Below, one piece after another: positions 1 through 64,000 of a DNA stretch of 64,000 bases. A program made the position numbers and the translations under genes. This DNA comes from Mermis nigrescens. Lineage: Eukaryota > Nematoda > Enoplea > Mermithida > Mermithidae. Position 1 is the stretch's first letter; every line of letters begins with the position of its first letter. Below the pieces are notes generated by a model. The model was not told the DNA's origin, searched no databases, and saw only the letters and a list, made by a program, of their open reading frames with translations. Location of the stretch: the NCBI GenBank assembly GCA_036768485.1, contig JAVLUZ010000154.1, positions 7,422,512 to 7,486,511 of the forward strand, read 5' to 3'.

Positions 1-1915
1 TTGCTCTCTCGACCTCTCCATTGGCCATTGGGTGATAGGCCGTTGTAAATACTCTACGCGTTGTAAATAGGTTTGTTATTTCTTTCATAAGTTCTGATGT
101 AAAATCGGAACCGCGATCAGATTGGAGTATCTGTGGGGCTCCATGTCTACACGCGATTTGTGTCACGAAAAGTCTTGCAATTGTACGAGCAGTAATATTT
201 TCCGTGGCAAATGCTTCAATATACTTGGTGAAATAGTCAATAAACACAACAATGTATTTATTTCCATTTTCAGTTAAATTTAGCGGCCCTACGCAGTCTA
301 CTGCAATTCGTTCGAAAGGACCCGAAGATGAAATCGGTTGAATACTTGCAGCAATTTTTTGTCGCGCGGGTTTGTTACGCTGACAAATGTCACACGTTTT
401 ACAATATTCTGCGATTTGCTTAGACATGCCTTTCCAGAAATATTTTTTCGCAACTAATCGTACAGTTTTTCGCGCACCAAAGTGTCCAACGAGCTCATCA
501 TCATGATGGCTCTGAATGAGTAAGGGTTTTAGCAGAATAGGAACTACCACCCTTTTTACTTTGTCATTAGCTTTATAAAGAATTCCGTTTTCAATCACAA
601 AACCTTCTGGGCATTCTTGTTGAAAATAATTTTTTAACTCTAGGTCTTCTTGCTGTAGAAAACCTATTCCCATTTCAGGCTTAGTGAGCGTAAGAGATAT
701 TTCTTTTTCCATTTTTACTACATTAATCCCGCAATTTTCATCATCCTCAATTTTTAGCTTATTATCATCTATATCAAAATATTTTGTTTCGCATAAATTT
801 GGCAGACGGGATAACGAATCTGCATTTTGATTTCTTACCCCCTTTCGCGGTATTACTGAAACTTTTATTCCTGCTAATGATAGGCCCCAACGTGCTATTC
901 GGGCTGAAGGGTTCGATTTTTCCAAAATCGATTTGACTGCTGTGTGATCTGTTTCAACAATAACTTCTTGCTGGTACAGATAAGGTCGAAAATACTTAAT
1001 AAATTCGACTACTGCAAGTGTTTCTAACTCGGTGACTGCATAATTTTTCTCAGCAGGTTTTAGAGTGCGACTCGCATAGGCTATTGGATGCTCTCGGTTG
1101 TCATTTTGAAATTGTGATAAAACACCTCCAATCCCATTATACGAGGCGTCTGTTTGCAAAATAAACGGACGTGCAAAATCAGGATGAGATAAGATGGGTG
1201 ATTTTATCAATTTTTCTTTTAGATGTTGAAAAGAATTTTCCTGTTCTTCTTTCCAAACAAAACTTCTATCCTTTCTTAGCAAGCGATTTAATGGTTCAGC
1301 AATTTTCGAACAATTTTCAATAAATTTTCGATAGTAGGAGATGATACCCAAAAACGACTTAATTTCCTTGACGTTGGTGGGCTGAGGCATTTCTTTCACT
1401 GCCTCTATCTTTTTTGGGTCTGGTGAAATTCCTTGTCCCGAGATTACATATCCTAAAAATAGCGTTTCTTCATGCGAGAATTTACATTTAGACAATTTTA
1501 ATTTCATGTTGGCCTCATTTAGTCTTTCAAGAAGCGTTTCTAGCCGCCTCATCATCTCGTGATGATTAGGGGCGAAAATTAAGTTATCGTCTAAATACAC
1601 AAGGCAGACACTCCACTGTAGACCAGATAAAACAATGTCCATGAGCCGGGTAAACGATGCCGGCGCATTACAAAGTCCGAAAGGTAGGTAATTAAACTCG
1701 TATAAGCCTACTGGTGTGTTAAATGCTGTTTTTTCTTTATCTTCCTCCTTAATTGGAATTGTATAATAGGCATTCGATTGATCCAAAGTCGTAAAATATC
1801 TCATACCTTTTAGCGTGTCCAAAATATCGTCGATTCTTGGTAAAGGGTAAACATTTTTTTCGTAATATTATTTACACCTCGAAAATCAATGCACATTCTG
1901 TGTTTCCCATCCTTT
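1..1915 (-). pseudogene. pol: pol, main part: RT palm, RNase H, integrase (open at window edge)
   Basis: One open frame of about 630 codons runs to the window edge with no stop. It copies the element RNA into DNA, removes the RNA strand and inserts the product. Visible in order: RT fingers and palm with CIDFRGVN, LDQSNAYY and the catalytic VYLDDNLIF; RNase H with TDASYNGIGGVL, the Glu of ETLAVV, TDHTAV and NADSLSRL; integrase with an HHCC zinc site (HH...GHF...CKTCDIC) and a full DDE core, Asp in AVDCVGPL, Asp in SDRGSDF, and Glu of GEVERA 36 residues after the second Asp. The frame meets the upstream RT segment only through a one-base slip in an A run near 1,911-1,916. The C-terminal integrase part lies outside. 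Labelled pseudogene because of that slip, which could also be a sequencing error. Confidence 0.93.
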
Positions 1916-2714
1916 TTCGTACTAATACTACGTTCGTTGACCAGGGAGAAATGCTGGGTCTGATAATTTCCTTATTTTCGAGTTTTGTCACCTCATCTAT
2001 TACTATTTGTTTCTCTGCTGGTGAAGTACGGTATGGATGCTTATGTATAGGTGTGCTTTGATCTGTATCGATGACATGCTCTATTAAATCTGTTTTTCCA
2101 TAGTCCATTTCGTCTCTGGCAAACAAATTAGGAAAACGGACGAGGAGGTTCATGATGTCGTCACGTTCTACACTGGATAACGTAGGCGAAATATTCGTAT
2201 TTTGTGTTATCCATTGTTTTATGTCTTGTGTTTGCATAATATCGTGGGTTAGTGTGTTTTTGCACCTTGGTTCATTTACATTATGATCTACGTGCATATT
2301 CACTGTGCCTATCTTTGTATTACCGTATAGGCGTGCCTCACACATATTCGGGTTGAATACTTGAATTGGTATTCTGCTGTCCTCCTGCAAAAGACATATA
2401 GAATGAGCTAAATGTATTTCTTGTGTATTTTTGCACTCCATTGGTTCAAAAATTACCTCATCTCTAGGGAGATAATGGGAGGGCGTTCTGGCAAAAATAA
2501 CCTGTATTGACCGTGGGCTTATTATTTCGTCCTGAGTCAATGTTATTGCGCTTCGTTTTTCAGGCGGGTTGTATCTCATACCTAAGGCGGGTATGGCAAC
2601 GTCTCTGAATGTTATGGTTGATTTTTGCAAATTTAGTTCAATTTTCTTGAATCTAGACAAAAAATTTGCTCCTAGCAGCAGATCTGCAGCACAATTTTCT
2701 TGTATATAAACCAA
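1872..2714 (-). pseudogene. pol: pol, upstream part: protease end and RT N-terminus
   Basis: A 280-codon frame. Its start carries DLLLGANFL, which matches the conserved ILG-type segment near the end of retroviral aspartic proteases. The last third is the classical RT entry: HVIDT, a Tyr-Arg-x-Ser-Pro motif (PYRTSPAEK) and IIRPSISPWSTNVVLVRK. It then shifts out of frame in the AAAAAGG run near 1,911-1,916 and stops at 1,872, while the RT continues in the next frame. The middle (residues about 40-180) is a linker without a motif I recognise. Because the ORF has no upstream stop of its own making, its first Met is not a real start; it is the continuation of the protease frame. Confidence 0.85.
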
Positions 2715-3047
2715 TAATGTTTCTTTTATGTCATATGCGCTATCAAAACGAAAGCGGACCCAAGGATAGTGATTTCACTTCCGTTAGCTGCTATAGGACG
2801 AACAGATGTTTCGTACGTTTTAAAATTCGGCAATTTTTGTGCGATTTTAAGATCCAGTAGCGAATAGGACTGCACCAGTGTCTACCATAGCTGTCACTTC
2901 TACGCAATTATTTAGAATTACGTTGATGTGTGTAGTTTTCTTGTTTTCTCCACTGATGCTAGCTATCGATTCTTCGTTTTTAGCTAAATTTTTCCACATT
3001 ACCTTTTTAGGTTTCTTCCTCGTTGTCGGCTTTAATAGTCTCATCAT
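2715..3047 (-). pseudogene. retroviral-type aspartic protease, N-terminal part
   Basis: The ATG at 3,047 lies only a few bases after the stop of the envelope-like gene. A lysine-rich leader is followed by VTAMVDTGAV, with the DTG active-site triplet of clan AA proteases, which cleave the Gag-Pol precursor. The frame stops at 2,847, just after the active site. Protease-like sequence continues in another frame to about 2,740 and then changes frame again before the segment at 2,714. That makes two frame breaks in about 150 bases, while the residues on either side still look like protease. Expression of pol from its own ATG right behind the envelope-like gene would be unusual. Confidence 0.75.
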
Positions 3048-3055
3048 TGCTTCAC

Positions 3056-4885
3056 CTATACTCTCGCGTTGTCGTACTTCGGATGAAGAGGGAGGGTGGA
3101 AGCATTAATAACAGATGATCGTTTTTGAATCATGTAAAGATAAGCAAAATAGCCGATTACGCCAAAAACAAGTACAATTAGTAGCAAATTGAATAAAAGT
3201 TGAACAGGACCTGTCAGCAATGCACTAAAATTGCTGGAAAAACTATTTTGTGTTCCAACGATTAGCTTTTCTAAACTATTTTCGGCTCCCTGTACGACAG
3301 TTTTTATTCCTGTTCCTGCTCCTACCAACGATTCACGAATTAGGTTGGGTTGGAGGGCCATCCCAGCCGTGTAGTCTAACAGTCGGTGCAAAGTTTTCTC
3401 TAGTTTTTCGGTTTTATATAAGTAATTCCGAAAAAGTCCGAAAGTCGGTTCTCCGGATGCTAAACGATCGTGAAAAACTGCTGGTGTGTTAAATTGGAAA
3501 AGGCTAAAATTTTCTTTCCATTTTAGCTCTAATGGTATTTCAGAAACATGAATTAAACCGTGTTCTGTGACCCATTTGTCTTTGTATCGGAAAATTTCGA
3601 CTTTCTTGTGTAAACAGTTTACAGTTTCTGAGAAGTGGACTAAATCTTCACTTCCTGGGAGTGCAAACCAAATCTCTGCATTGTACTCTACAGGTAGGTA
3701 CTTATAACACGTACCATTTATTTTATGATCAGTGTAAACTTTCGTCACGTTAACTTTTCAGCAAGTCCAAATTGTAAGGACATCCCCTGTAAATTCAGCT
3801 AAGAGATCCCTCCTTTGAAAAAAGGCTCGGGCCCCTATGGTAGGATCCAGATACAAAAGCTGCCAAATTATGTCTAGGCTTCGCTGAAGTTGACGGCATA
3901 ATTCTGACCAAATTCTCCGAAAACTCGAGATTTCTTCTTGGAAAATTCGAATTTCGAGATAATTTAGTTACAAGTTTACAGGGTCAAAATTTCCTTTTTC
4001 GATTTTAATAATTTTTGGCGCTTTTAGCGTATGATTGGACCAGGCGCCCAACCCCTTATTGGAGTTATACCCTACTATGACACCTTGCTCTGAAATAAAT
4101 GCGTTTCGTATCTCGTGACACTTTTTATATTCGCCTTTTATTAAGAATGCCGCCTGTAAATCGTCAACAACGACATACTGATTACTAATTAAGGCGGGAA
4201 AAGTGCCACGGGGGATGAATGGGCAAATTTCTTGAAAAAATTCCCCGTGCCAAATAAAAGTAGACTCCATGTTTTTGCACTTCCCATAGGTGGGGCGGCA
4301 AGAACTTACATCCCCTAAATCTGAGACAACACTCCGTCCGGTCCAACTGGCAACCTGACCCTTTTCTATGATAAAATTCGTTATGGAGCTGCACAAGTCG
4401 TAGCAGCACCAGGAAAATCGAATTTCTAATTTTTGGTCAGTTGTCAAAAATCCGTTTTTATCTAATTTTAGATGAATTCCTTCAAATTCATTATTTTCGA
4501 AGGAATTTTTACACATTTTGTAAGAAACTGGTTGGCTTTCGGTTTTATCCAAAATTATGCCTTTCGACCCGAAAAATCCAGTGTTTGTACACACTGTTCT
4601 AGTGATTTTCATGCATTTTATGGCAAAAGCGCTTTTCGGTTCGGTTCTTGGAACAAAAATTGCGACGTTTTGCTTTTCTGGCCTTGGGAGGTTTCCTCCG
4701 GGTAAAGTGCATTGCACCGAACGGGGCAAACTTATGGGGTGGCCGCTACGACTCGAACCACACACTTGGAACTCCCGGTCTCCCATGGCACATTTCGTGA
4801 TACAAATAAAGGACATTACGATAAACGTAGCTTTACACGAATAAGGCGAATTGGCGCAGCAAAGCGATTGTTTAATAAGTAGCAT
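3056..4885 (-). pseudogene. envelope-like membrane glycoprotein (class I membrane topology)
   Basis: From the Met at 4,885 a hydrophobic signal-like segment (FIVMSFICITKCAMG) leads into a Cys-rich ectodomain of about 290 codons. The frame ends at 3,968; the glycoprotein continues in another frame, meets a TGA near 3,764, and then runs open to 3,056. The last part has a Cys-containing ectodomain, an amphipathic stretch (EKLEKTLHRLLDY), one strong membrane span (LLLIVLVFGVIGYFAYLY) and a short basic tail (MIQKRSS...). About 610 codons in total, normal for an envelope. Such genes let an element form infectious particles. The segment near 3,790-3,860 (Gly-Ala-Arg, then Gly-Asp-Val-Leu and a Cys) reminds me of the glycoproteins of negative-strand arthropod viruses such as chuviruses that LTR elements have captured; that origin is an inference. 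Position between gag and protease is abnormal. Confidence 0.6.
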
Positions 4886-6066
4886 TAAAAAGTAAATGCA
4901 CGGCTTATTTAGTTTAGATAAATTGTCTAAAAGCGTCTTAAATAAATTTAAGCAATACGCCGCTTTTCTATCATACAGAATGGCTGCCATACCAGCAGCA
5001 ACTGCTGCTCCATCCTTATCCAAATTTGGCGCCGTCGGCATCAGTGCCGCTTCCGACGTCTTCAGTCGCATCGTCGGCAGCGCTCTCGCTTTTGGCGAGC
5101 CATCCTTCGTCGCAGTCTGACATCTCCTCGACGTCAGCATCCGAGACGTCTGTGAGAGGAAATTAGAGCATGAGAATATTTTTAGTGACAGGATCTTTTG
5201 ACATTTTATCGACCTTAGCCACTTTAAAATAAGTTTGTTTCTTGAAATGACATAAAAAACAGTAATTCTCAAGCTGTTCACAAGAAAGACGACAGAACTA
5301 CACACTTTCGCAATAATTTCGTTTCTTTTCTTTATTCCCCAAAAATTTTGGCGCTTAGCGCTTGCTTTAGCCTTGAAAATGTAATATTTGAGGAAAGAAA
5401 AGAATTTTTGCGGGCCAAAAGAGTGCCAGTTATTTGCACAAAGATGCTTACTTATTAAACGTTTATCCATGCGGTTATATTGAATTTTAAAGGCAACATG
5501 TTCACAAAAGTGTGTAAACATAATACGAATTTCGAAAGAATAAATTGTTAATCTAGGTACGGTAAAATTTAAGCAATCATGAAGAGTGAATGAATAATTT
5601 CGTATCGTTACTTCAAGTTCATTATAATTTTGCGCGTTTTTAGACATATTCAATTTCTTAAAATATGACATTTACGCACTGCTAAGTTTAAGCATTAATA
5701 TGAATATCTGCATGCACTGATAATATGATAAAATAATATAACATATCAGACAATGATAATACAACGCTAATATAACTGCATGCACATAACTGCAAATGAA
5801 TAGCAAAAAGGAGAATGTGAATAAAGTCATTGATAAATGCATCAAAATGACGAAGAAAATATTTAGAATTTTTAATGTTAATTCGAAAAAATTTCTTTCT
5901 AAAGAAATTACGAGGTAAATTAGAATAGAGACAAAAATTATCAAATAATTGAGAAAAAACGTAGGAAGGTTCTCGCCAGAAAAACGATCCCACTTGACGA
6001 TACGAAGGTCCGGGATTCGGAGAATCCGGCGACTCTTTCTCGGTTTCCGTCAAGCCGTTTTCATTC
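4886..6066 (-). other. region between gag and the envelope-like gene, with a candidate splice acceptor
   Basis: Mostly AT-rich. A long frame that continues upstream of the envelope Met to 5,671 is open, but its composition there looks like chance. A good minus-strand 3' splice site lies at 5,150-5,151 (TTTCCTCTCACAG). Directly after it, in a different frame, 5,149-5,015 encodes an acidic GC-richer peptide (Asp/Glu/Ser/Ala-rich, e.g. SDADVEEMSDCDEGW) ending at a TAA. This could be the acceptor of a spliced subgenomic RNA, as retroviral envelopes use. A second frame at about 6,230-5,950, overlapping the end of gag, also looks coding (charged, Pro/Ser-rich), so the gag C-terminus may have shifted frame. 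Confidence 0.4.
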
Positions 6067-7596
6067 TTAGATTTTCTCGCCATCAAGGAGCTGTCGACCG
6101 TGCTCCGGACAAAGATGGCACGTGCATCTTTTCGGCTTTGCTTTTCCTTGTCGACGGTTTCGATGCGATCGTGGAAGGCGTCGATTTGGCTGTTGGCGGC
6201 GTCGATGGCGGCGGAGCGGAGGTGGCGCGGCAGCTGAAATCGGAGCGTTTTCAGACTCGGACGATAAATCGTTGAGAGGGTGAGGCGGGAACACCCCCGT
6301 AAATTGCGGGTTATCGACTGGGTCGTCGAATTTTCCGTGTTCCCATAAAATAACGCGGCCGCCCACATAACGGAAGATCGGGTGCTCGAGCCGCCACTGC
6401 TCATAGTGGCGGAACCGATTGGCAGCCTCTAGAGCGGTGTAATCAGTGTCCGATTCATATTCGGTTTCACTTTCAGTTGCTGAATCGTCGCTCGTTTCAA
6501 ACAGATCAGCAACATCAGCCGCTCCTTGTTCTGCACAGAGAGGGAAATTTACGAAATTTACGTGGCCATGTCCCATCACCCTGTGGAGCAAGCCCTCATC
6601 TTCTATATCGAAAAATTCGGAGTTTGAATGATTTTCACTTGTTTCATCCGTTAAAATATTACTATTTGTCGGCCTTCCCAAATTTTCTGAGAAACGAACG
6701 TTTTTTACATTATTTCTCGGGGAATTAGAATTTTGGGCTTGGTCTGGCCGGGGGACTGGACTTGGGGTCCGTAGGTGAGGCCCCGGACTATACATTCTGG
6801 ACTCCCTGTGCCTATTACCTGCATTAAATGAATTTTGCCTTGTGTTATTCGAATAATCACGATAGTTCCGATTATTATTATTTAATGCATTTCGCGGTTG
6901 CCCATTATTTCTGAAATTTACATTTCTTTGGTAATCGTTTAAATTACGATTTGCATTTCTATTTAGGTTATTGTTATTAGAATTACGGTAATTACCATCG
7001 CGGTTCGGTGGGCAGCGGAAAGGCTCGTGGAACCCATTGCAACGTGCGCAGTGCGATGGGCGCGACCAATGCGCCAAAGGACCGCAGCGGCACTCTTCTG
7101 TGACGTGATTCGGACTGTCACACATACGGCATCGATTTTGGCGGATGAGCATTTCTTTAATCTCGTCTAACTTCTTTTCCATTGCAGATCCTGAAGGTAA
7201 AATCGATAAATTATAGTCGGCTCTGGGCTCGCTGGACGGTGTAGGGTAATCTTGTATGTTTTCCCGAAAAACTTGGCGTTCAGTGTACGATGCCCGCCTG
7301 ATGGCATCTGTCAAGGTTCCGCACTCCTGATATTTGATTCCTTCGTAAATTTTAGGCAGAAGCTCCCTGATGTAAATTGGTTTTATGATACTTTCCCGGC
7401 TATTTTCCGAAAGTTGGGGGTAAGCTGATCTAGCTAGCTTTTTCAACCTCTCAGAAAATTCCAGGACGGACTCAGCCCTCCGTTGTTTGGCGTCGTACAC
7501 TAAACCCTGAAAAATATCACTATCACGACCCTCCGAAAATTCAAGCTTAAGTGCCCCAATGACATCGTCAAAGCTAGGGTCACGAAGTGTTTCCAA
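6067..7596 (-). pseudogene. gag: gag, capsid end and nucleocapsid
   Basis: The structural polyprotein that coats the element RNA. The first 110 residues match the conserved part of Ty3/gypsy capsid (retrotransposon gag family): an acidic region, then QRRAESVLEFSERLKKLAR and an ELLPKIYEGI segment. Two zinc knuckles follow at about residues 156-170 and 180-195: CRMCDSPNHVTEEC (CX2CX4HX4C) and CARCNGFHEPFRC (CX2CX3HX4C, one residue short of the standard spacing). Then comes an Asn/Arg-rich RNA-binding stretch of about 90 residues, an acidic segment, and a Pro/Arg-rich tail. It joins the upstream capsid part across a frame break at 7,597-7,606. Confidence 0.85.
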
Positions 7597-7605
7597 AATA
7601 TTATT

Positions 7606-8361
7606 TTAAGTCGCCAAGGCGGCACCAATGCAATTTGATTCTAAAAATGCGATTTTATAAGCATCATCCGCATTTGAAACACCTTGGAGAACCATATATT
7701 TTTTGAACTTTTTAATCCATTCATGAAAAGATTCACCAAAAGCTTTAGAAAATGGCTTAGGGGGTCTTTGAGTCATCAAAGCACCCAGGCGTTGAAAAGG
7801 ATCTCCCAATGGGCCTGTTACGTTAGGTTCCGCATGCTGTTGGACCCGCTCTTCCAAATTTGTCACTTTTCGCATCAGTGGAGCACCAAATTCGTCAAAA
7901 GCGTTTTTAAAAGCTTCCTCCATTTGTTTAGGATCAAATGCCATTTTTCTCGTTAACGCTTTTTTCGATTTTTGAATCAAAAATTCTTTAACGAAAGGTG
8001 CAAAACTTTTGGAAAATTTATCTTTCTGTTCCCCTTTTAGTTCGCTTTCTTCCCTTAAGTCAGTTTGTTCCGACGTACTTGGAGTGAGACTTACAATATT
8101 TTTAAAAGAAGTTGGCTGTACGCCTACTTTAGGGGTACTGTGTTCTCTAGGAATAGCAAATGAAGTATGTAAAGTGTCTAAAAATGTTTGATGAGCTTTT
8201 AAAGTATTTTCAAAAGCTTTTGTGTCTTCTTGATCAGAAAATTCTTCAGATGAGGTTAAAGCGCTTTTCTGAAAAACTTTTCCGTTCTCAGAGTCAGAAT
8301 TTGAATCCGTTTTGACTTTTCCCGGTTTTTCACTTTTTTTCAATCTTCCCTGACCGTTATT
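7606..8361 (-). pseudogene. gag: gag, N-terminal part
   Basis: Open from just after a TAG at 8,362-8,364 to 7,606. The first 130 codons are charged and Ser-rich; the rest leads into capsid (EWIKKFKKYMVLQGV...DDAYKIAFLES) and continues, after a frame break, in the 7,596 frame. There is no ATG before 7,944 (MAFDPKQMEE); the only earlier start-like codon is TTG at 8,343. Either Gag starts at 7,944, or its true 5' end was lost where the 1.04-kb repeat begins at 8,376. Only about 15 bases separate the in-frame stop from the edge of that repeat. Confidence 0.7.
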
Positions 8362-22770: not shown

Positions 22771-23349
22771 GTGCTATCCTATGTACTTAAACTTATTGTT
22801 CAGTGCTATCTTACTTAAACTTATTGTGACAAAAATGAATCTTCGATACAAAATTTTTACTTTTGATAGTTTATATTAAATATGTACATAGTACATTTAA
22901 TAAGTTTATATGCAATATGTACATGTAATAAGTTCATATTCACATTTGTGCCAGCGAAAACTTTATTGCTATTCTTAGAGAATGAAAAAATTACGTATTT
23001 CGATTTTGAAAAAATGTACGTGCAGACACATACGTACGTATGTACATATATTCATAGTAATAGTACAACCGGGTCATCTGGGAATTTTTATGCCATCTAT
23101 CGATCACCCGGTATAGTGTCGGCCACCCGGGACTTTCGGCCACCCGGTACAGTCGGCAACTCGGGACAGTCGGCCACCCGGGAGTGTCGGCCACTCGGAA
23201 CAGTCGGCCAGTAGGTACTGTCAGTCACTCGGGAATTCTTTGATTGACAGATCTATTTTTGTTCTATTTGTCGGTGACCCAGAGTGTCGGTCACCCGGGA
23301 CTGTCGATGACCCGGGACTGTCGGTCACCCGAAACGTTATCAGAATTTA

Positions 23350-25640
23350 GTCTTAAGACATTTCAGTGAACGCGTAACTTAGCAAGGACAAAATATATCA
23401 CATTTAAAATACGCTCCGAGTTAATGCATAATACCTACATAATGCATAATGCATTTTCGAATGAAAATGCTATGAAGGACGCCAATTTATTGGATGAAAA
23501 GTAATGCAGTCGCATATTTATGCAAATCTGGAAATCAAAAATAGAGGCAGTCTGGATTGTACAATGAGATAAGCATGAGAGATCAGGTGAAAACAGTATC
23601 TAATTGTAATGACCAAGTGCCATGTATTTCTCAGCCAGTATTTTTTTAAATTGACTACTAGACACGCATCAACCTGACCGGTCTGTGGGCGAAAATACGA
23701 TTGAATCAAAAATATTGAAAAATTGGTCGGAATTACAGCAAATTTATAAGAAATTAGCGAATCTGCTGAGGCGGAAAATGTTTTCTAGCGATAAAGGATG
23801 CTCAACTCTCCTCTCAGATCGTTTACGAAAATTCAACAAAGGCAGCGCTAATTACTTTGAGTACTTCGATCGACTTCTTCATCGCGATCATCTTTCAGGC
23901 ATAGCAGAAAAATACAAATATAGCGGCAATAATCAAATACCTGAAATGAGAGTAAAAAGAAGCTTCAAGTAATCAACAAATAAACATTAACAAACTGTAC
24001 GATGCAGCTGCAGCCTAATAGAAGTCCTTTAACGAATCAAATCAATGGTCGAAAACTCGATCTACCCATTTAAACACTACAAATTGTAAATCGCAGAGTA
24101 AATCCTTCACTTTACAAAATTGAATGCAACCAGCTTAACAGGCTTATCAGGCTAGTTTAAACTTTAATATCTGTATGTCCTATTCCGATGAATGGTAACA
24201 ATCAATTTCGACGTGGGTGCTGTACTGGGTTTAAATGCACAGTCACGGAACCGTACTTTCTGCAGCGCGCTATAAACATAGCAAGATACGGCGACCTAAA
24301 CTGATATTCTCATTTGCATCAGAGACAGCAAAGCGGCTCAAAAGTCAAAATTTAAAAGGACGATCTCAATATTTCAGTGCAGCAGAGCATTTAATTTCCA
24401 TAACACAAAAATTTATTAAATGTGCTCCATGGACGTGTTACTCAACATCTAATTAGCATTTTAGTGCACAAAGGCTATTGACTAAAGCGAATGGAAAAAA
24501 GAATTTCTCGATGTCACTAATGTAAATGAAATCATGTCAATCTAAGTGTCGAGCATTGCTAGTTGCTATGCTCGTAACGTGCTGTAGAAAGTACAGGTCC
24601 GTGATAATGCATTTATGCCCTGTGCTGTTTACTCCATGAAAAATAATCTTTAGGATGGATAAAAAAAGCTTCAAAAATAATTTATAGGGCGCCGAAATCA
24701 CGACAAAAACTTTCTGCTGTACTTATTGTTTCGATTAGAATCGGTTAGGCAAACTGGAATGTGAATTTGAAACATTTTCATTCTTATTACAATCCGATTT
24801 GCAAAAATGGTTTTAGGAAAGGTGTTTTTCCTCCCGACAGATTCAAGAAACTATGCATGGCCAGTAGAATTGGCAACAAGCGGTTTAAATTCGAGCAGTG
24901 ATCACAGAACTTTAACTGCAGTCTCACGAGCACAAAAAATTTTCATGTGCAATCTTATAACAAATCACGTTTGTGGTCACTTACATTACTGAAAATTGCT
25001 TTTCACGGACAAGATTTTAGTCATGAAATGAAATCAGGTCATGAAATCAGAAGGTCTCAGGCAGGATACTGGAAATCTGGAGAAAAAATTTTTTGAAAAG
25101 TGAAAACGTAGGATTTCCCATTCCTCCGATAACTTGGCCCGTTATCTTTGATGCATAAAATTGATTTTAGGACGAGTTTATGCTCATTTTGCTTGAATAA
25201 CGAAATTCAATTTATTTAGGGAATGAAAATCCTACAATTCAGTCGATGACGGATCTAGGATTATCGTTGGGGCGTCAGTCGAACTTTTCCAAAAATAGGC
25301 CAGAAAAATTCATTATTCATGTGCAGATAGAGATTTTTCTCCTTTCCCCACTGTCTACGTCTATTCAAAAATACATCCGGCGAAGGAATTTCTCGGAAAA
25401 ATTCCAAAACTTAGGCATAAAAATGCTTGAAGTCCGCTCCTCACTCTCGCCCGCCTTGATTCCATTGCCAAAATCGCCGGATTATGAACCTTGATGATCA
25501 TACATGTATAGCGTGGGAATTGGGGGTCAGGCCCAAAAAAATTTAAAAATTGCCTTTTTGGGCTAAAACGATGCGTGCACGTTAAAAGCACTGTTTTTGA
25601 CGTTTCAGACAATGCTCGTTCTTTCTAGAACATAAAAGCG
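23350..25640. other. no gene supported
   Basis: A few frames of 60-95 codons occur on the plus strand (23,685-23,972, 24,235-24,456, 24,807-24,992). The first is charged and somewhat protein-like (NWSELQQIYKKLANLLRRK) but lacks splice sites I can defend or any known motif. Confidence 0.4.
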
Positions 25641-25659
25641 TAAAAAATGGTGATGTCTC

Positions 25660-26047
25660 AAGAGCCCCACCAGTCCCAACAGCCCTACCGTCCCAACAGC
25701 CCCACCGTCCCAACAGCCCCATCAAAAATCCCAACAGCCCCACCCGTCCCAACAGCCCTACCAGTCCCAATAGCCCCAACGTCCCAGCAGCCCCACCAAT
25801 AATCCCAATAGCCCCAGCAATCCCAATAGCCCCAGCAATCCCAACAGCCCCACAATCCCAACAGCCCCACCGTCCCAACACCACCACCGTCCCAACAGCC
25901 CCACCGTCCCAACAGCCCCACCGTCCCAACAGCCCCACCAATAATCCCAACAGCCCCACCCGTCCCAACAGCCCCACCAGTCCCAACAGCCCCACCGTCT
26001 TAACAACCCCACCGTCCCAACAGCTCCACCAATAATCCCAGCAGCCC
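25660..26047. repeat. CCCAACAGCCCCACCGT minisatellite, left arm of element C
   Basis: Over 20 units of about 17 bp with short variants (CCCCACCAATAAT insertions). Long glycine/leucine/tryptophan frames across it are products of the repeat, not genes. Confidence 0.95.
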
Positions 26048-26446
26048 CACCATTACTGCGATTGCTATTATGCGAGAAGTGCGACTGCGATTGCTATTAT
26101 GCGAGAAGTGCGTTTGGCGAATGTACTTTTGAATTATTGAATTTATACGGGCTCCGTTTGATCATAAAAGAGCAGCATGTACGTACAATTTAGGTAGGAA
26201 AGTACGTACTGCCCGAATGTAGCTGCATATTGCATGTATAGATCGATGTGAAGTGTTAAAATTCAATATAAATCAAAACATTCACGCTAATCTGCTTCAA
26301 AATAGCCAGAAAATGTGGATTAGCGTAGTTTTACGCTATTTTAACATTTATGCCAGTTTTGAGGTCATTTTTGGCTCAAAGCTCCTTCTCCAGACCGATC
26401 GTGCCTTGCAGCTATGAAGCTATGATTATAACAGTGGGGTAGTTGC

Positions 26447-27814
26447 GATTGTGTCCCGGGTGACCGACAGTCCCGAGTGACCGACAGTCCCGGGTGACCG
26501 ACAGTCCCGGGTGACCGACAGTCCCGGGTGACCGACAGTCCCGGGTGACCGACAAATGGTTTCAAGAATAGATATGTCAATCAAAAAATTCCCGTCTGGC
26601 CGACAGTCCCGGGTGGCCGGCTAAACCGGGTGGCCGGCTATACCGGGTGGCCGAGTCCCGGGTGGCCGGCTATACCGGGTGGCCGGCTATACCGGGTGGC
26701 CGAGTCCCGGGTGGCCGACTGTACCGGGTGGCCGACAGTCCCGGGTGACCGACAAGTGGTATAATAATAAAATTGTCATGAAAATTTCTAACTGACTAAT
26801 GATTTCGGAAAATTAATGCCTTTTCAAGTAGGTATTTATTTATGCACATAAATAGTTTTACCAATGCAAAAACATTGCTCATATGAATTCATAGCAAATT
26901 TAAAACATGCAGGATTTGGTAAAAAATGCCTATTATTTACATTTCGTAATATTTTAGTGCTATCCTACTTAAACTTATGGTGGCTGCAAAATTACAGCTA
27001 CATATTTGTGTAACTTCAGTGCTGCGAAAGTGCCATCAAATGATTTACTCGACATTTAACCAATAACAGAGGCGTAGCCAAGACTTTTGTGCAGCCAGTT
27101 TCTCTGTTTTCGAAAATACTGTGCAACGCTCCACATAAAAATGTTTATTTTGACAAAAAAAGATTAAGTATCCGCCCGATTCAAAATGAAAATGAGGTTT
27201 TATTTTTAGAATTTTTTGATTCTGAAGGTGCCTAAACGCGATTTATTGCCTATGAATTCCATAGCGCACGTTAAAATACGCTGTAGGCCGAATTTAATGC
27301 GCACAAAAATATAAGTAATTCAAGATCTTTAAGACGACTGGACAAAAATGAATATTTGATATTTGATACAAAATTGTTAGTAAATATGCACATTTAAGAA
27401 GTTTATATACAATACAATACGTACATGTAATAAGTTTATATTCACATTTATGCCAGTGCAAACTTTATTGCTATTCTAAGAGAATGGAAAAATTACGTAT
27501 TTCGATTTTGAAATAATATTTATTCATAGTGATAGTACAACCGGGTCATTTGGGAATTTTCATGCCATCTATCGATCACCCGGTACAGTGTCGGCCACTC
27601 GGGACTGTCGGCCATCTGGTACAGTCGGCCACCCAGGACTGTTGGCCATTCGGAACAGTCGGCCAGTAGGTACTGTCGGTCACTCGGGAATTTTTTGATT
27701 GACAAATCTATTTTTATACTATTTGTCGGTGACCTGGGACTGTCGGTCATCCGGGACTGTCGGTGACCCGAGACTGTCGGTCACCCGGGACTGTCGGTCA
27801 CCCAGGACGTTACC
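26447..27814. mobile_element. foldback-like element B with minisatellite inverted ends
   Basis: Left end GATTGTGTCCCGGGTGACC; right end, inverted, GGTAACGTCCTGGGTGACC. Perfect 8-bp duplication GTAGTTGC (26,439-26,446 and 27,815-27,822). Arrays of GTCCCGGGTGACCGACA and GGTGGCCGGCTATACCGG units occupy 26,450-26,755, with the inverse at 27,540-27,810. The interior aligns with element A on both sides (for example AAATAGTTTTACCAATGC near 26,840 and AATTACGTATTTCGATTTTG near 27,490). It lacks the two insertions found in A. Confidence 0.85.
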
Positions 27815-27954
27815 GTAGTTGCAACCAAAATTGGCAGCGAAAAGTCTGGTGGGGTAAAGTGCTGAATATAGAATTCTGGGGGTCTACCATAATTTGGGGG
27901 TTTAAGGGGGTTAAACTCTAAACATCCCCTCCCCTAACTTATGTGTGGTTGGGA

Positions 27955-28325
27955 CAGTGCGACTGTTGGAACGGTAGGACTGCTGGAACGATGGAACTGC
28001 TGAGATTGGTGGGGCTCTGGGGACCAGTGGGCTGTTGGGATTATTGGTGGGGCTGTTGAGACGGTGGGGCTGTTGGGACGGTGGGGCTGTTGGGACGGTG
28101 GGGCTGTTGCGACGGTGGGGCTGTTGGGATTGGTAGGGCTGTTGGGATTGGTGTGGCTGTTGGGACTAGTGGGCTCTTGGGATTATTGGTGGGGCTGTTG
28201 GGACGGTGGAGCTCTTAGGACGGTGGGGCCATTGGGACTGGTGGGGCTGTTGGGACGGGTGGGGCTGTTGGGATTTTTGGTGGGGCTGTTGGGACGGTGG
28301 GGCTGTTGTGACTGGTGGGGCTCTT
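27955..28325. repeat. GGTGGGGCTGTTGGGAC minisatellite, right arm of element C
   Basis: Inverse orientation of the array at 25,660-26,047, about 20 units. The two arms are 1.9 kb apart and could pair. Confidence 0.95.
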
Positions 28326-28514
28326 GAGACACAATCAAAAAAATGGAGTAAGTTAAGAATATGGTACTTTCAGGATACTATGAAATAAACTTCAGAAGAG
28401 CGGATTTTTTTGCTCAGTACTTAGAACATGTTGAAAGAAAGCGCGGAAAAAATATTCATCCGTCTATGATCAATATTACAAAAGCTATGGGTTTCGTTAA
28501 TTAGCCTCTTCTCG

Positions 28515-48222: not shown

Positions 48223-48715
48223 TGGTAATGTGAAGCAATGCAGAAGGTTACATATGCAAATTAAGCTAAAAGGTTAAAGTAAATAATATGAACATGAGCA
48301 CAGGTAAATAATTGTGTGAGGGCCAATGGCCTCACTTATTATTTTCTATCAAGCAACAGAAGAATATGCCTGAGCCAGTTTTTGCTATTTTATGAGGTGA
48401 TAAGCTATAGTAAAAAGAAAGTTGGTTTTGGCAAAATAGTTGAGCCCCAAATTTGTTTATCTCAAACATTTTATTTTGTTTAAATTGCAAAAGTGGTTCC
48501 TGAGATTTGCTCAACAAATCTAAAAGGTATGAAACACTTTTTTGAGTGATCATCAACAATATATTGTCTTTAGAGGTTTACAGAAGGCACTTTGATTTAA
48601 GATTCCGAAATGTGCATAATCATGTCATATTATTGTTAAACTGAATTATGGTAGGCCATTAAATACTAATTTTGTGCCATTTATAGTGAAAACAATGTGT
48701 ATTGGTTTCTTAACA

Positions 48716-49890
48716 GTGTGACCAAGAAGGATGTTTATCCTTTTGCTACATCTTGATGAGACATTGGATGCCTTAGAAACAGCAAAGTATTTTTCCACAT
48801 TGGATTTGGCATCAGGTTATTGGCAGTTGAGTTTGAGGTAAAAGCAGAAGGAAAGACTGCCTCTTAAGTCACAAGGGCTAATTTGAGCTTGCTATGGTCA
48901 TGCCCTCTTGGTCCTTGTAATGCACCTGGAACATTTCAATGATTGATGGACCTGGTATTGGATGGATATCTGTTGAATTTTTGCACTGTGTACTTGGAAT
49001 ATGTTATCATTTTCTCATCATCCTCTGAAGAGCACTGCAAATATTTAATAAGCCTAGACAGACTGAACATCACAGGCTAGTCTTAAATTGAAGGAAAAGA
49101 AGTGTTATTTTGGGAAACAACAAGTTCTTTTCTTGGTCATTTGATGTCAACTGGAGGAATAAACCAGATCTGAGCAAGATAGAGGCTATCAAAAGTTGGC
49201 CAGTGCCAAAAGACAAGAAGAAATTGTCTTCATTCATAGGACTTTTTCAAATATTATAAACAATTCAGTCAGAATTTCTTGGCTAAGGCTGCAGTCCTCA
49301 TTTATTTCAGAAAGGCAAGAAGCCATATTAATGGACCACAGAATGTTAAAGACATTTGAGCTACTCAAGGAAGAGAAAGCAAGGCATCACACATTGTAGT
49401 ACTCCAGCTTTTACTAAAAAGATTTTTTGGTTGGTACTGATGCTTGATAATTAAGTGGCCACAGTTGTCTTAGCACAATATGAAGATAAGGACTATGGAT
49501 AATATCATGAGGGTCAGTTATTGTACAATGCTGAAAAGGAGTATCACATGAACAAGAAAGAGATGCTGCCCATATTATAGGCAGTCATTTAACCATACAG
49601 GCCTGATGTCTTTGGTCGTCAATCTGATTTGGTAACTGACAGTTCTTGTGGTGCCAGAAAGTCAGTGCTACTACATTGAGATAATGAAGATATTTAAGAT
49701 GGCAACATGAGCTTACTCAGGCTAATGATACATTGACTGTACTGTGTGGTACACATAATGCAATTGTTGTAAAGAAGGTTTATGTGTTTCTATTTGAAAC
49801 ATATGATCACTTGTTGGCTCAGAGGACTAGGCAGATTCATCAAAAGATATTCAAGTATCTGACAATCCTAGTCAGTGCATGAAATGGTTA
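48716..49890 (+). pseudogene. pol: decayed Ty3/gypsy RT-RNase H
   Basis: Frame-shifted and stop-ridden, but landmarks keep their order. Near 48,720 a KKDVYP-like start; at 48,760-48,835 ETAKYFSTLDLASGYWQL, the RT palm entry; at 48,985-49,030 the remains of the catalytic loop (a Val-Ile-Ile-Phe-Ser-Ser stretch where the two Asp are gone); at 49,140-49,260 the thumb; at 49,400-49,640 RNase H with FFVGTDA, AQYEDKDYG and EKEYHMNKKEML. It differs from the element at 1-8,375, for example in the ASGYWQ motif. The span contains almost no CpG. No LTRs seen. Confidence 0.85.
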
Positions 49891-60989: not shown

Positions 60990-61609
60990 TACTGGGTGGC
61001 CCATATGTTTGTGGACACTTTTTAAAACCAAATATTTGAATAGGTTTTAAAGAAAAAGTGGTTAGTTTTTGCCACATACAGACATAAGCATGTACTTGTT
61101 TCCTGCATTGTCCTTTTTTGTTGTCTTCAATTTGTACACAAAATGTTTGCCAAACAAGTGGATCAATCAAAAATATTGGGTTTGTTTCACTGTGGCTTTA
61201 ATAGGAACCAGATTTTTAAAATGCTGTGTTGCCAAGGATTTAACCGTTCTAGCGTTTATAACATGATCCAGAGATATAAGGAGTTAGGGACAGTAGAGGA
61301 TCAACAAAAGTTGGGACGTCCGTAAACTGTGAGATCCAAACCGTTAATACAAAAGTCACACAACAGGGTGCGCCAAAATCCTTGCCAATCATGCCAAAAA
61401 TTTGCAGCACAACTCATTACCTCCAGGAGCAGCGTGCAAAGGGTTTTGAAAGAGGACCTTGGCCTTAAGGCTTACCACTCCCACAAAGTTACTTTATTGT
61501 CAACATCTATTTGGGGTGTAAGGAAGAAAAAATGTCAACTGTTGCTCAAGCATTTCAAGGATGCAAATGTGAAATTCTTTTTATTTTCCGATGAAAAGCT
61601 ATTCACTAT
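60990..61609 (+). pseudogene. mariner-like transposase, N-terminal part, cut by an LTR element
   Basis: A candidate terminal repeat starts at 60,990 (TACTGGGTGGCCCATATGTTTG), as in mariner elements with a TA target. The coding frame starts at 61,143. It holds a helix-turn-helix (ILGLFHCGFNRNQIFKMLC), the RYKELGTVED linker and GRP, then an in-frame TAA at 61,323. It stays open through a second HTH region (SRSSVQRVLKEDLGLKAY) and reaches FSDEKLFTI with the first Asp of the DDD/E triad. There it breaks off at 61,609, exactly where the LTR begins. The rest of the transposase would lie beyond the window if the LTR element is complete. Inactive. Confidence 0.85.
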
Positions 61610-62145
61610 TGTAACAAATGTGATTTTTAGCATTCTTACTTACTGTAATCTGCACACTCAAAGCTATTGTATACTTTATGTTTTAATTACTGTAATGAAG
61701 CTAATAAAGTTATTCGTCACTTATCTCATTCACTATACTATATAACTTCTCATTTAGCGAATTCCTTATTGTCTTTATGAGCGCATCACATGCTTTCTCC
61801 GAAACATCACATTTATAGCATAAAAACTCATGCCACACACAACCTTTGATATTTGTGAATATTCTCAAAAAAACTATTGCTCGCAATAAGCTTCTGGCAC
61901 ACTTAGATAAAGATCTTCAAACTTTTACTGACGCATGCGCTCAACCCACTCATCCAAGTCTACAAATAATTTGTGTAGTTGCATTGCATTCAGTTGGGCT
62001 CGTTTTTGCTCTGATTTTGCTTTGCGCTGCTCTCTCTCATATTCACAATTTGTATAATTTGCAATCTCAATAATAAAACGTTCTCAACCTCAACTTGTTT
62101 TGTTTTCCTGAACTTATCAGCATAGTCCAAATTATTGTCATTACA
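61610..62145 (+). mobile_element. 5' LTR of a second Ty3/gypsy-like element
   Basis: Begins TGTAACAAATG and ends GTCATTACA, so the termini TGTAA/TTACA are perfect inverted repeats; 536 bp long. It interrupts the mariner frame, leaving ACTAT (61,605-61,609) as the likely 5-bp target duplication, which can only be checked at the other end. It contains TATATAA at 61,739-61,745 and AATAAA at 62,072-62,077, fitting U3-R-U5. A primer site follows 4 bases later. Confidence 0.85.
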
Positions 62146-62167: not shown

Positions 62168-62417
62168 GAACCACCTGACTTGTGTGTTAAAATAAATTGT
62201 TATTTGCGATTTATTACAAATATATTCTTTTAATATTATCCAAATAACGATTCAAAATATTCAACAAAGACGAAGATTTGCCTTCCCATTCTCAAGGTAC
62301 TATACACGCAATTTATGTTCAAGATCTATTTGCGTTCTGTCTAATTTATCACATCAAATCTTGCAGAGAAAATATAGTAGAAGTACATCAAATTCGTGTA
62401 AAAATAAAAATATAAAA

Positions 62418-63702
62418 ATGGATGCACAAGCTATAGCATTATTACAGCAAACAGTAACACACATCCAAGAAATGTAAGATAATAGACCTGTTTCTTTTAT
62501 TGCTATGCCACCATTGTCTCAATTTAATGGAGATGGCGAAATTAGTTGGACAAAGTGGGAGAGGCAATTCTCAAACATTGCTGTTCTCTCAGGTGCATCA
62601 CAGCTACATCGTAAATTAGCATTATTATCTACATAAGTAAAAGGAGCAGCACAGACTCTATTTTTGGATCTTTCTCAAAAGGAACCTCAATTTAATACTT
62701 AGAAACAGTGGTCGGATGCTTTTTCTGAAAATTTTTCGATAATCAACACATTGACATCAAAAGGGATCAACTTCTCACACGTTTTCAAAAACCGTCTGAA
62801 AATGTTCAACTATTTGCAACCGATATAAGACGTTTAGCAAAAAGGGCGCAACCGGGTTGGTCAGGGCATGACAGAAATGACTTTGTAAAAAGTCACTTTA
62901 TCTCAAAACTTTTGCCAAATCTCCGGTTATGGGTTTGAAACGCCTCACCAAAAACATTTGAAGAAGTTGTCACTGAAGCGTATAAACAAGAAATTAATCA
63001 AAAATATGACACTACATCAAACAACACAGTAAAAAAAATTTTCAAAATTTTCCAACATCATATAAGGCATTAAGTCCGAAAAATGTTAACACACCTTATG
63101 CAGAAAAACAGTATTTTGCATCTCGCATGAGTCCTTCATCTAATAGGTATACCGTAGCACCAAATAGCAATAAAATATTTACATGCTATTTCTGTGGTAA
63201 GCCAGGGCATTGTATGATCAAATGCAGAACTCATTTACGCATGATGACTACCCAAAATTTACAGCACCCTATGTACAATAATACACCAAATAATACGCCA
63301 CCTACACCAAATAATGCGCCACCTAGGATGCAACATCGTAATTTTACGCATCCGTCATTGAATGAAAGGTCTAATGTTAGTGCAAATCGTTTCACAGAAC
63401 CCCGAAAATTTTACTCAAACCCTCAAACACATAGACAGACATCTGATAATTCACAAAAATATTCACAATATAAAAACGTTCAGTGGGCAGACAAGCAACG
63501 TTCTTCACATGACATAGAAGCGCAAAGGCAAGCGGAAGATGGCAGAGAGGGTATGAATGAATATTCTGACCAGCTTGAGCAGGCAGAGGCACCTTACACA
63601 GATGAGTATCCTGAACTTGCGCAAGTGTTCTCTCAAGTCGGTATACCTTCTATGAGGACATTTGGTCTACTGTCTGGCCCCACCTACGAAGTTCAAAAAT
63701 GA
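62418..63702 (+). pseudogene. gag: gag of the second element, broken
   Basis: The Met at 62,418 opens a gag-like frame: a short helix, then PPLSQFNGDGEISWTKWERQF as in Ty3/gypsy gag N-termini, and further on RRLAKRAQPGW and LPNLRLWV. Several in-frame stops (TAA near 62,475, TAA near 62,634, TAG near 62,700, TGA near 62,937) and frame breaks occur. The last 191 codons (63,127-63,702) are intact and include one zinc knuckle, CYFCGKPGHCMIKC (CX2CX4HX4C), followed by an Asn/Pro/Gln-rich region and an acidic tail. Unlike the element at the left edge it has a single knuckle. Confidence 0.85.
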
Positions 63703-64000
63703 TGCCCTGACTCTTTGTTGTGTAACCCTGGATTAATTCTGGAAGGTAGAGCTTGTGAAGGTGATAGGCGTCCGCCGCCTGCACAAAGTACTACCGGTGG
63801 CCACCAAAAAATGTTTCAAAAATTTGGGATTGTGTTTTCCTCAGGAGGTGTTGATTTTTATGGACTCTCTTGGGATGCCACGGCCTTCTACAGTATACCA
63901 TTTGTGAGGTTCCTAACAAGACTGTCCCAAATATTTTACACCATGATGATATTTTTGATTGTCATTCTCTCAACAATACTCAAAAACACTAAGAATAATC
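63703..64000 (+). CDS. frame continuing after the gag stop, with a membrane segment
   Basis: Immediately after the gag TGA the same frame stays open for 99 codons to the window edge. It encodes a Cys-containing start (CNPGLILEGRACEGD), a Pro/Gly region, and a strongly hydrophobic span (FYTMMIFLIVILSTIL) followed by a basic tail. It does not look like protease. A stop-codon readthrough product or an envelope-like segment next to gag would both be odd; the window ends before this can be settled. Confidence 0.4.

Follow-up and report, generated by a model that had tools for sequence, protein, structure and literature searches.

The 64,000 nucleotides (nt) analysed here, hereafter the window, belong to the nematode Mermis nigrescens (GenBank assembly GCA_036768485.1, contig JAVLUZ010000154.1, positions 7,422,512 to 7,486,511). 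On the minus strand they carry what reads as a decayed copy of a Ty3/gypsy-type long terminal repeat (LTR) retroelement, one of a large family. From high to low coordinates it is composed of a Ty3-type gag, an AT-rich stretch (the spacer), an envelope gene (env), a protease (PR) and a reverse transcriptase-RNase H-integrase region (RT-RH-IN) that runs off the left edge. Across this large and partly young family, env is placed by the sequences not merely between gag and pol but inside their frame, a stronger finding than the gene order alone proposed by the first-pass annotation. The common frame probably gives one Gag-Env-Pol polyprotein, with a predicted intron between gag and env likely yielding Gag alone through a spliced RNA.

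Gene order and nature of the envelope

The genome searched was the window's own (524 Mb, 860 contigs). The 45 matches of Col_cuticle_N in it, all above the family cut-off and set against none in 14 control genomes, point to a nematode and not an arthropod host; Chitin_bind_4 matched neither this genome nor the controls. A search with one part of env (piece C) gave 1,334 first-look candidates, the best 150 of which were scored; of these, 68 are held in open frames of 1,000 codons or more, 28 in frames of 2,000 or more and 13 in frames of 2,500 or more. Identical scores recur among many of these matches, a likely sign of duplicates or alternative haplotypes, and the counts cannot be taken as independent. 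Twenty copies were picked from the best 150, non-randomly, to span the range of identity (42-99% over piece C), and gag, env, protease and pol pieces were mapped onto each. The order gag-env-PR-RT is present in all 20. One open frame extends over gag (matches of at least 60 nt counted), env and PR in 13 of them, and in six of the 20 it goes on over 1,500 nt or more of RT-RH-IN, for a total of 2,519-3,104 codons; the remaining seven copies have stops or frame breaks in between. The first-pass annotation had taken the tight junction between env and PR for an established arrangement. The junction does exist in the window copy, where the final TAG of env lies 8 nt ahead of the protease ATG at 3047-3045, but in the 13 fused copies env continues into the protease without a stop, so this junction is a trait of the decayed window copy and not the established form.

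A pol search gave a consistent picture. The best 72 of 5,636 first-look candidates correspond to 71 copies (one copy gives two rows), and in 65 of the 72 rows (64 of the 71 copies) a listed env lies no more than 8 kb upstream in the same orientation. No row has an env downstream of pol among the best 150 env matches listed, in agreement with the earlier suggestion of a lineage with gag-env-pol order. Seven rows are without a listed env; among the four looked at, three have a broken or partial env (one of only ~35 residues), and the fourth has none within 4.1 kb upstream, where a 100-N gap is found. Moreover, two more distant copies recovered with the Pfam profile PF24664 (see below) both show gag-env-PR-RT in a single frame over the DNA retrieved. 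The genome holds many other, less closely related glycoprotein copies, several of them in open frames of more than 2,000 codons.

The right edge of the window holds a further element with env after gag:

62417..64000, plus strand: second, distant element; gag remnant; an env homologue starts past the edge

An in-frame TGA marks the end of its gag (63700-63702), and the same frame continues into an env homologue. This homologue, in DNA beyond the window (locus L033), starts 267 nt past the end of the gag frame and is 33-39% identical, which bears out the earlier remark that a hydrophobic frame follows gag at this edge. The gag-env start of this element is present twice in L033, ~1,985 bp apart.

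Paired LTRs were established for one family copy, in which both flanks were examined, and not for the window copy. These terminal repeats are 1,108 bp long and 100% identical, suggesting a recent insertion. Only 45 bp separate the end of the long frame from the 3' repeat, too little for a second env.

The env of the window copy was annotated as follows:

3059..4885, minus strand: envelope coding stretch with two in-frame stops; PF24664 matches, as in all 13 relatives aligned (limit E 1)
4781..4885, minus strand: signal-like hydrophobic N-terminus with predicted cleavage before DREFQ, read by eye
3128..3205, minus strand: transmembrane-like span, Kyte-Doolittle mean up to 2.58; a span is present here in all 20 sampled copies

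It sits 3' of gag and 5' of the protease in a single reading frame running from 5671 to 3056 on the minus strand, with in-frame stops at 3970-3968 (TAA) and 3760-3758 (TGA) and the final TAG at 3058-3056. Its three pieces share one frame, which rules out frameshifted fragments. The longest open run in 5950-3056 has 567 codons, a length reached by none of 500 first-order random sequences (maximum 237), and the open run of 305 codons in 4885-3056 is likewise unmatched (maximum 193). The first piece after the first stop matches the PF24664 (Monjiviricetes_fusion) profile weakly (profile positions 316-383, E 0.037), and the next piece more clearly (positions 384-459, E 2.8e-6, 26.0 bits, slightly below the cut-off of 27). 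The piece ahead of the first stop has no match to this profile, and all window pieces stay below the curated cut-off. The single frame and these matches confirm the envelope-like glycoprotein frame on one strand between gag and pol that had been proposed. No 19-residue window of the signal-like N-terminus exceeds the hydrophobicity threshold in this copy. A protein search with the env pieces, viral-contig scans, phage records, PHROGs and Rfam returned nothing informative, and a prokaryote collection gave one short, uninformative locus.

Env stretches from 13 sampled copies align over ~600 residues with many invariant cysteines, and a hydrophobic span lies near the end of env in all 20 copies. 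With a limit of E 1, each of the 13 matches PF24664 (best 7.1e-18; the first member scores 49.3 bits against a cut-off of 27) and the bornavirus G family (best 2.2e-6); under the same limit the herpesvirus gB family is matched by seven of 13 and the rhabdovirus fusion domain by three. The profiles matched by env are those of chuvirus-, bornavirus- and herpes gB-type fusion glycoproteins. In the genome, 68 places were scored of 775 PF24664 candidates and all 68 are above the cut-off; the same search found nothing in 14 control genomes. The ratio of nonsynonymous to synonymous substitution (dN/dS) of env is 0.07-0.12 in six of eight pairs, two pairs being saturated. Five of the six dS values exceed 1, which leaves the closest pair (dS 0.28, ratio 0.09) as the one firm value. 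These ratios indicate that env is under purifying selection.

Taken alone, the decayed window copy could look like a gag-pol element into which a piece of env had been inserted by chance or as a nested viral fragment, and glycoprotein fragments near Gypsy elements have been reported (PMC10084718, in the part of that survey available to us). Such an insertion into a single copy is extremely improbable and is in fact refuted by the same order in other copies: it is shared by 20 of 20 over 42-99% env identity and by the two distant ones, and the common open frame and the purifying selection also speak against it.

Spacer, predicted intron and expression

In 14 of the 20 copies the spacer has no stop in the env frame, versus 11-60 in each other frame (for three of these copies the count begins at a fixed position). 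This frame is kept open despite poor conservation of the encoded protein, which argues for its translation in some RNA. At the end of gag, an SGEN motif of the long frame contains a donor-like site (in most copies TC.G followed, after the cut, by GTGAG or GTAAG), and a pyrimidine-rich acceptor is found 434-899 nt past it. Fourteen of the 20 copies (L010-L023) have this donor and acceptor at a shared position. The donor reaches at least 8 bits at the gag end in 11 of the 20, and in 10 of these it is the sole such donor in 2300-4100; weaker or GC donors are present in the window copy, its 99% identical twin, L022 and L023. A stricter donor pattern has four exact matches in the genome and none when reversed. 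Promoter-type splice scoring on the window alone was uninformative. The corresponding features of the window copy are:

5150..5976, minus strand: predicted intron of 827 nt with a GC donor, spacer coding when unspliced; the 99% twin has the same 827-nt pair, and relatives have GT donors
5016..5149, minus strand: predicted 3' exon encoding an acidic Gag tail and stop in a frame other than that of env; computed in the twin (45 residues), window coordinates by eye

The length of the predicted intron modulo 3 leaves a remainder of 2 in 11 of the 14 copies. The remainder is 0 in L013, L014 and L017, where gag and env are in different frames. Spliced, gag would pass into another frame and end in a tail of 8-70 residues, with its stop ahead of the mature env. 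All 14 tails, including three short ones (8, 14 and 26 residues), open with SD[VIL]S or SESSD, and aspartate plus glutamate (D+E) make up 27-54% of the 12 tails computed versus 0-8% in the unspliced frame of the same DNA.

We propose that the unspliced RNA would be read as Gag-spacer-Env-PR-RT-RH-IN and the spliced RNA as Gag with a short acidic tail. The internal signal-like stretch would send Env into the endoplasmic reticulum (ER), and the C-terminal span would bring the chain back to the cytosol, with Gag and Pol on the same side. Signal peptidase and the element's own protease would release the parts, and Env would make the particles infectious. The spacer has two or more hydrophobic segments in nine of nine copies, and with these extra segments the precise topology is uncertain. 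The idea that every intron encodes a two-span hairpin was dropped, for lack of support from shuffled sequences in more than four of the nine (see below). The production of Pol by splicing out env was also rejected: a recurrent acceptor-like site near PR falls in the region coding for the active site, and no conserved acceptor before PR was seen in the 14 copies examined.

Several points weigh against this scheme. The spacer protein has a mean column identity of only 19% and a dN of 0.49-0.94, and its strongest hydrophobic segment lies beyond most composition shuffles (25 or fewer of 1,000) in only four of nine copies. The donor/acceptor pair was not found in six of the 20 copies (L024-L029), some of them with the long frame, so the switch is not family-wide. 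In six of the 14 copies with the pair (L011, L012, L015, L016, L021 and L023) the second-best acceptor was taken for the acidic tail. Under the splice weight matrices used, sites this strong turn up roughly once in every kb; the case for the intron consequently rests on position, frame change and acidic tail, not on scores. The one repeat pair shows neither a target-site duplication nor TG...CA ends. A class III fold is a putative one for Env, suggested by the Pfam families; a solved-structure profile search gave no relative, and both structure models are of low confidence (pTM 0.24 and 0.21). Finally, both RNAs, spliced and unspliced, are predictions from the DNA.

The copies lacking the pair, together with the fact that donor strength alone is not rare, would also fit a reading without any intron, in which SGEN and the acidic reading would be due to the protein sequence or to chance, and protease cutting of the polyprotein would be the only source of Gag. 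We hold this to be improbable: 11 of the 20 copies share a strong donor at one position past gag, 10 of these donors being unique over 1.8 kb, and the start of the exon codes for the acidic tail with its recurrent opening in all 14, where the unspliced frame is non-acidic. Somewhat less improbable, yet still unlikely in our judgement, is an Env with an RNA of its own, whether through additional splicing, from an internal promoter or by re-initiation, the common frame being then a matter of ancestry and the polyprotein not the main product. Retroviral env is usually spliced (PMC10309623, in the portion accessible), and copy L024 has a fair acceptor at the start of env in a frame-keeping phase. 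Methionines at the signal-like stretch, tallied by eye in the 13 aligned env, bear on both sides: in six, one precedes the hydrophobic core or coincides with its start, against seven where it does not (four have none and three only within or after the core), the tally covering this stretch and not scoring spacer methionines further upstream. There is no conserved start codon here. In addition, no acceptor at the env N-terminus scores 5 or more in 12 of the 14 copies examined, and an open spacer frame in 14 of 20 copies also speaks against a separate RNA. The single polyprotein accompanied by a spliced Gag RNA is our preferred reading.

Other features of the window

The remaining parts of the element are:

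6067..8361, minus strand: gag frame (capsid and zinc-knuckle part) with an in-frame stop at 7608-7606 and a conserved ATG at 7944-7942; Ty3_capsid E 0.0067
2600..3047, minus strand: retropepsin-type protease with a frame break near 2850; gag-asp_proteas in 8 of 8 aligned relatives
2..2774, minus strand: linker, RT, RNase H and integrase (cut at the window edge), by domain profiles, with a frame break near 1862

The gag ATG was placed by comparison with family copies, and Ty3_capsid is above its cut-off in two of seven pieces of relatives. The pol profiles matched in the window (RVT_1, RT_RNaseH, RT_RNaseH_2, Integrase_H2C2 and rve) are gypsy-type, with no BEL/Pao-specific profile among the window matches, and the named relatives of the element are 297, 412, 17.6 and Ty3-I. 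The marks of decay (the gag stop, the env stops and the pol frame breaks) were partly read by eye. A -1 frameshift from env to pol was discarded, as the 46-nt overlap has no canonical slippery heptamer by eye and the relatives are in frame. About 100-140 codons 5' of the gag ATG (8361-7945, minus strand, in the window, and likewise in copies) are open and similar between copies. No in-frame ATG is present in this extension in the copies listed, and Gag may be extended at its N-terminus by way of a non-AUG start codon or of an exon further upstream.

A 1.04 kb repeat is found at 9415-8376 and again at 60946-59925 (minus strand) with 92.5% identity. Nested within it, between ATACTACC flanks, is a stretch that begins with CAGTGGCGGATCC; we take this to resemble a hAT-type element. 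The interval 9415-8376 was considered as the 5' LTR and rejected: the 99% twin diverges at its edge, and the sequence is absent from the 3.1 kb beyond the left edge of the window. Being missing from the twin, the repeat is likely an unrelated insert and no LTR of the element. Elsewhere, dense tandem arrays with a 17-nt period and long compound periods occupy 23105-28330, an RT remnant with 32% identity to a pol relative lies at 48700-49323 (plus strand), and a weak match to a Tc3-type transposase (PF01498, E 0.003) at 61326-61745 (plus strand).

Relation to known elements and significance

In its Ty3-type gag and pol domains the family is similar to the env-bearing Ty3/gypsy elements (Errantivirus and others). 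Where env is present in Metaviridae, it is encoded downstream of the integrase (profile of the International Committee on Taxonomy of Viruses (ICTV), PMC7879559), and the present family departs from this rule, all 20 sampled copies having env ahead of PR. Type III glycoproteins occur in some gypsy elements, according to the accessible part of a 2026 report (PMC13172572). Anakin, in mosquitoes, couples a chuvirus glycoprotein to a BEL/Pao element (PMC7642597, available text); the present family resembles it in the capture of a chuvirus-type glycoprotein by an LTR element but is of the gypsy type, and that text states no env between gag and pol for Anakin. As far as its available portion goes, a 2023 survey found no clear capture of such a glycoprotein by gypsy (PMC10084718). 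Atlas virus and related nematode belpaoviruses have a viral env fused into one polyprotein frame of 2828 residues (PMC9094657, in the text available). Unlike the family described here, Atlas virus is there a BEL/Pao element with Gag-Pol-Env order, a class II env at the C-terminus and no introns. Env-bearing gypsy elements, capture of chuvirus-type env and single-frame Gag-Pol-Env elements are thus already in print. No description of an env inside gag-pol was found in the open-licence literature searched, outside which lies Chary and Hayashi 2025 (eLife 108449).

Two other systems invite comparison. The copia element, of the Ty1/copia type without env, has one long frame and makes Gag from a spliced RNA, similarly to the predicted use here of spliced RNA for Gag and unspliced RNA for the long frame. 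The flavivirus polyprotein is one membrane-threaded chain with the capsid, a membrane glycoprotein with an internal signal and then the enzymes; there is no relation to it by descent, and its replication is different. We lean, with no great assurance, towards a new genome plan, in which an abundant, probably nematode, lineage of Ty3/gypsy retroviruses would have a flavivirus-style Gag-Env-Pol chain with a membrane-threaded class III Env, splicing giving Gag and its omission Gag-Env-Pol.

The family breaks the ICTV rule for Metaviridae, env downstream of the integrase (PMC7879559), across multiple copies, and adds a gypsy-type element with a chuvirus-type glycoprotein, not clearly seen in the accessible part of the 2023 survey (PMC10084718). 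It raises the question of one polyprotein with a glycoprotein in the ER lumen and the capsid and polymerase in the cytosol on either side of it. If the proposal is true, the polymerase would be tied to the envelope, and frameshifting and env splicing would be replaced by a single reverse switch. This suggests that the ratio of Gag to Pol, often set by frameshifting, may also be set by intron retention.
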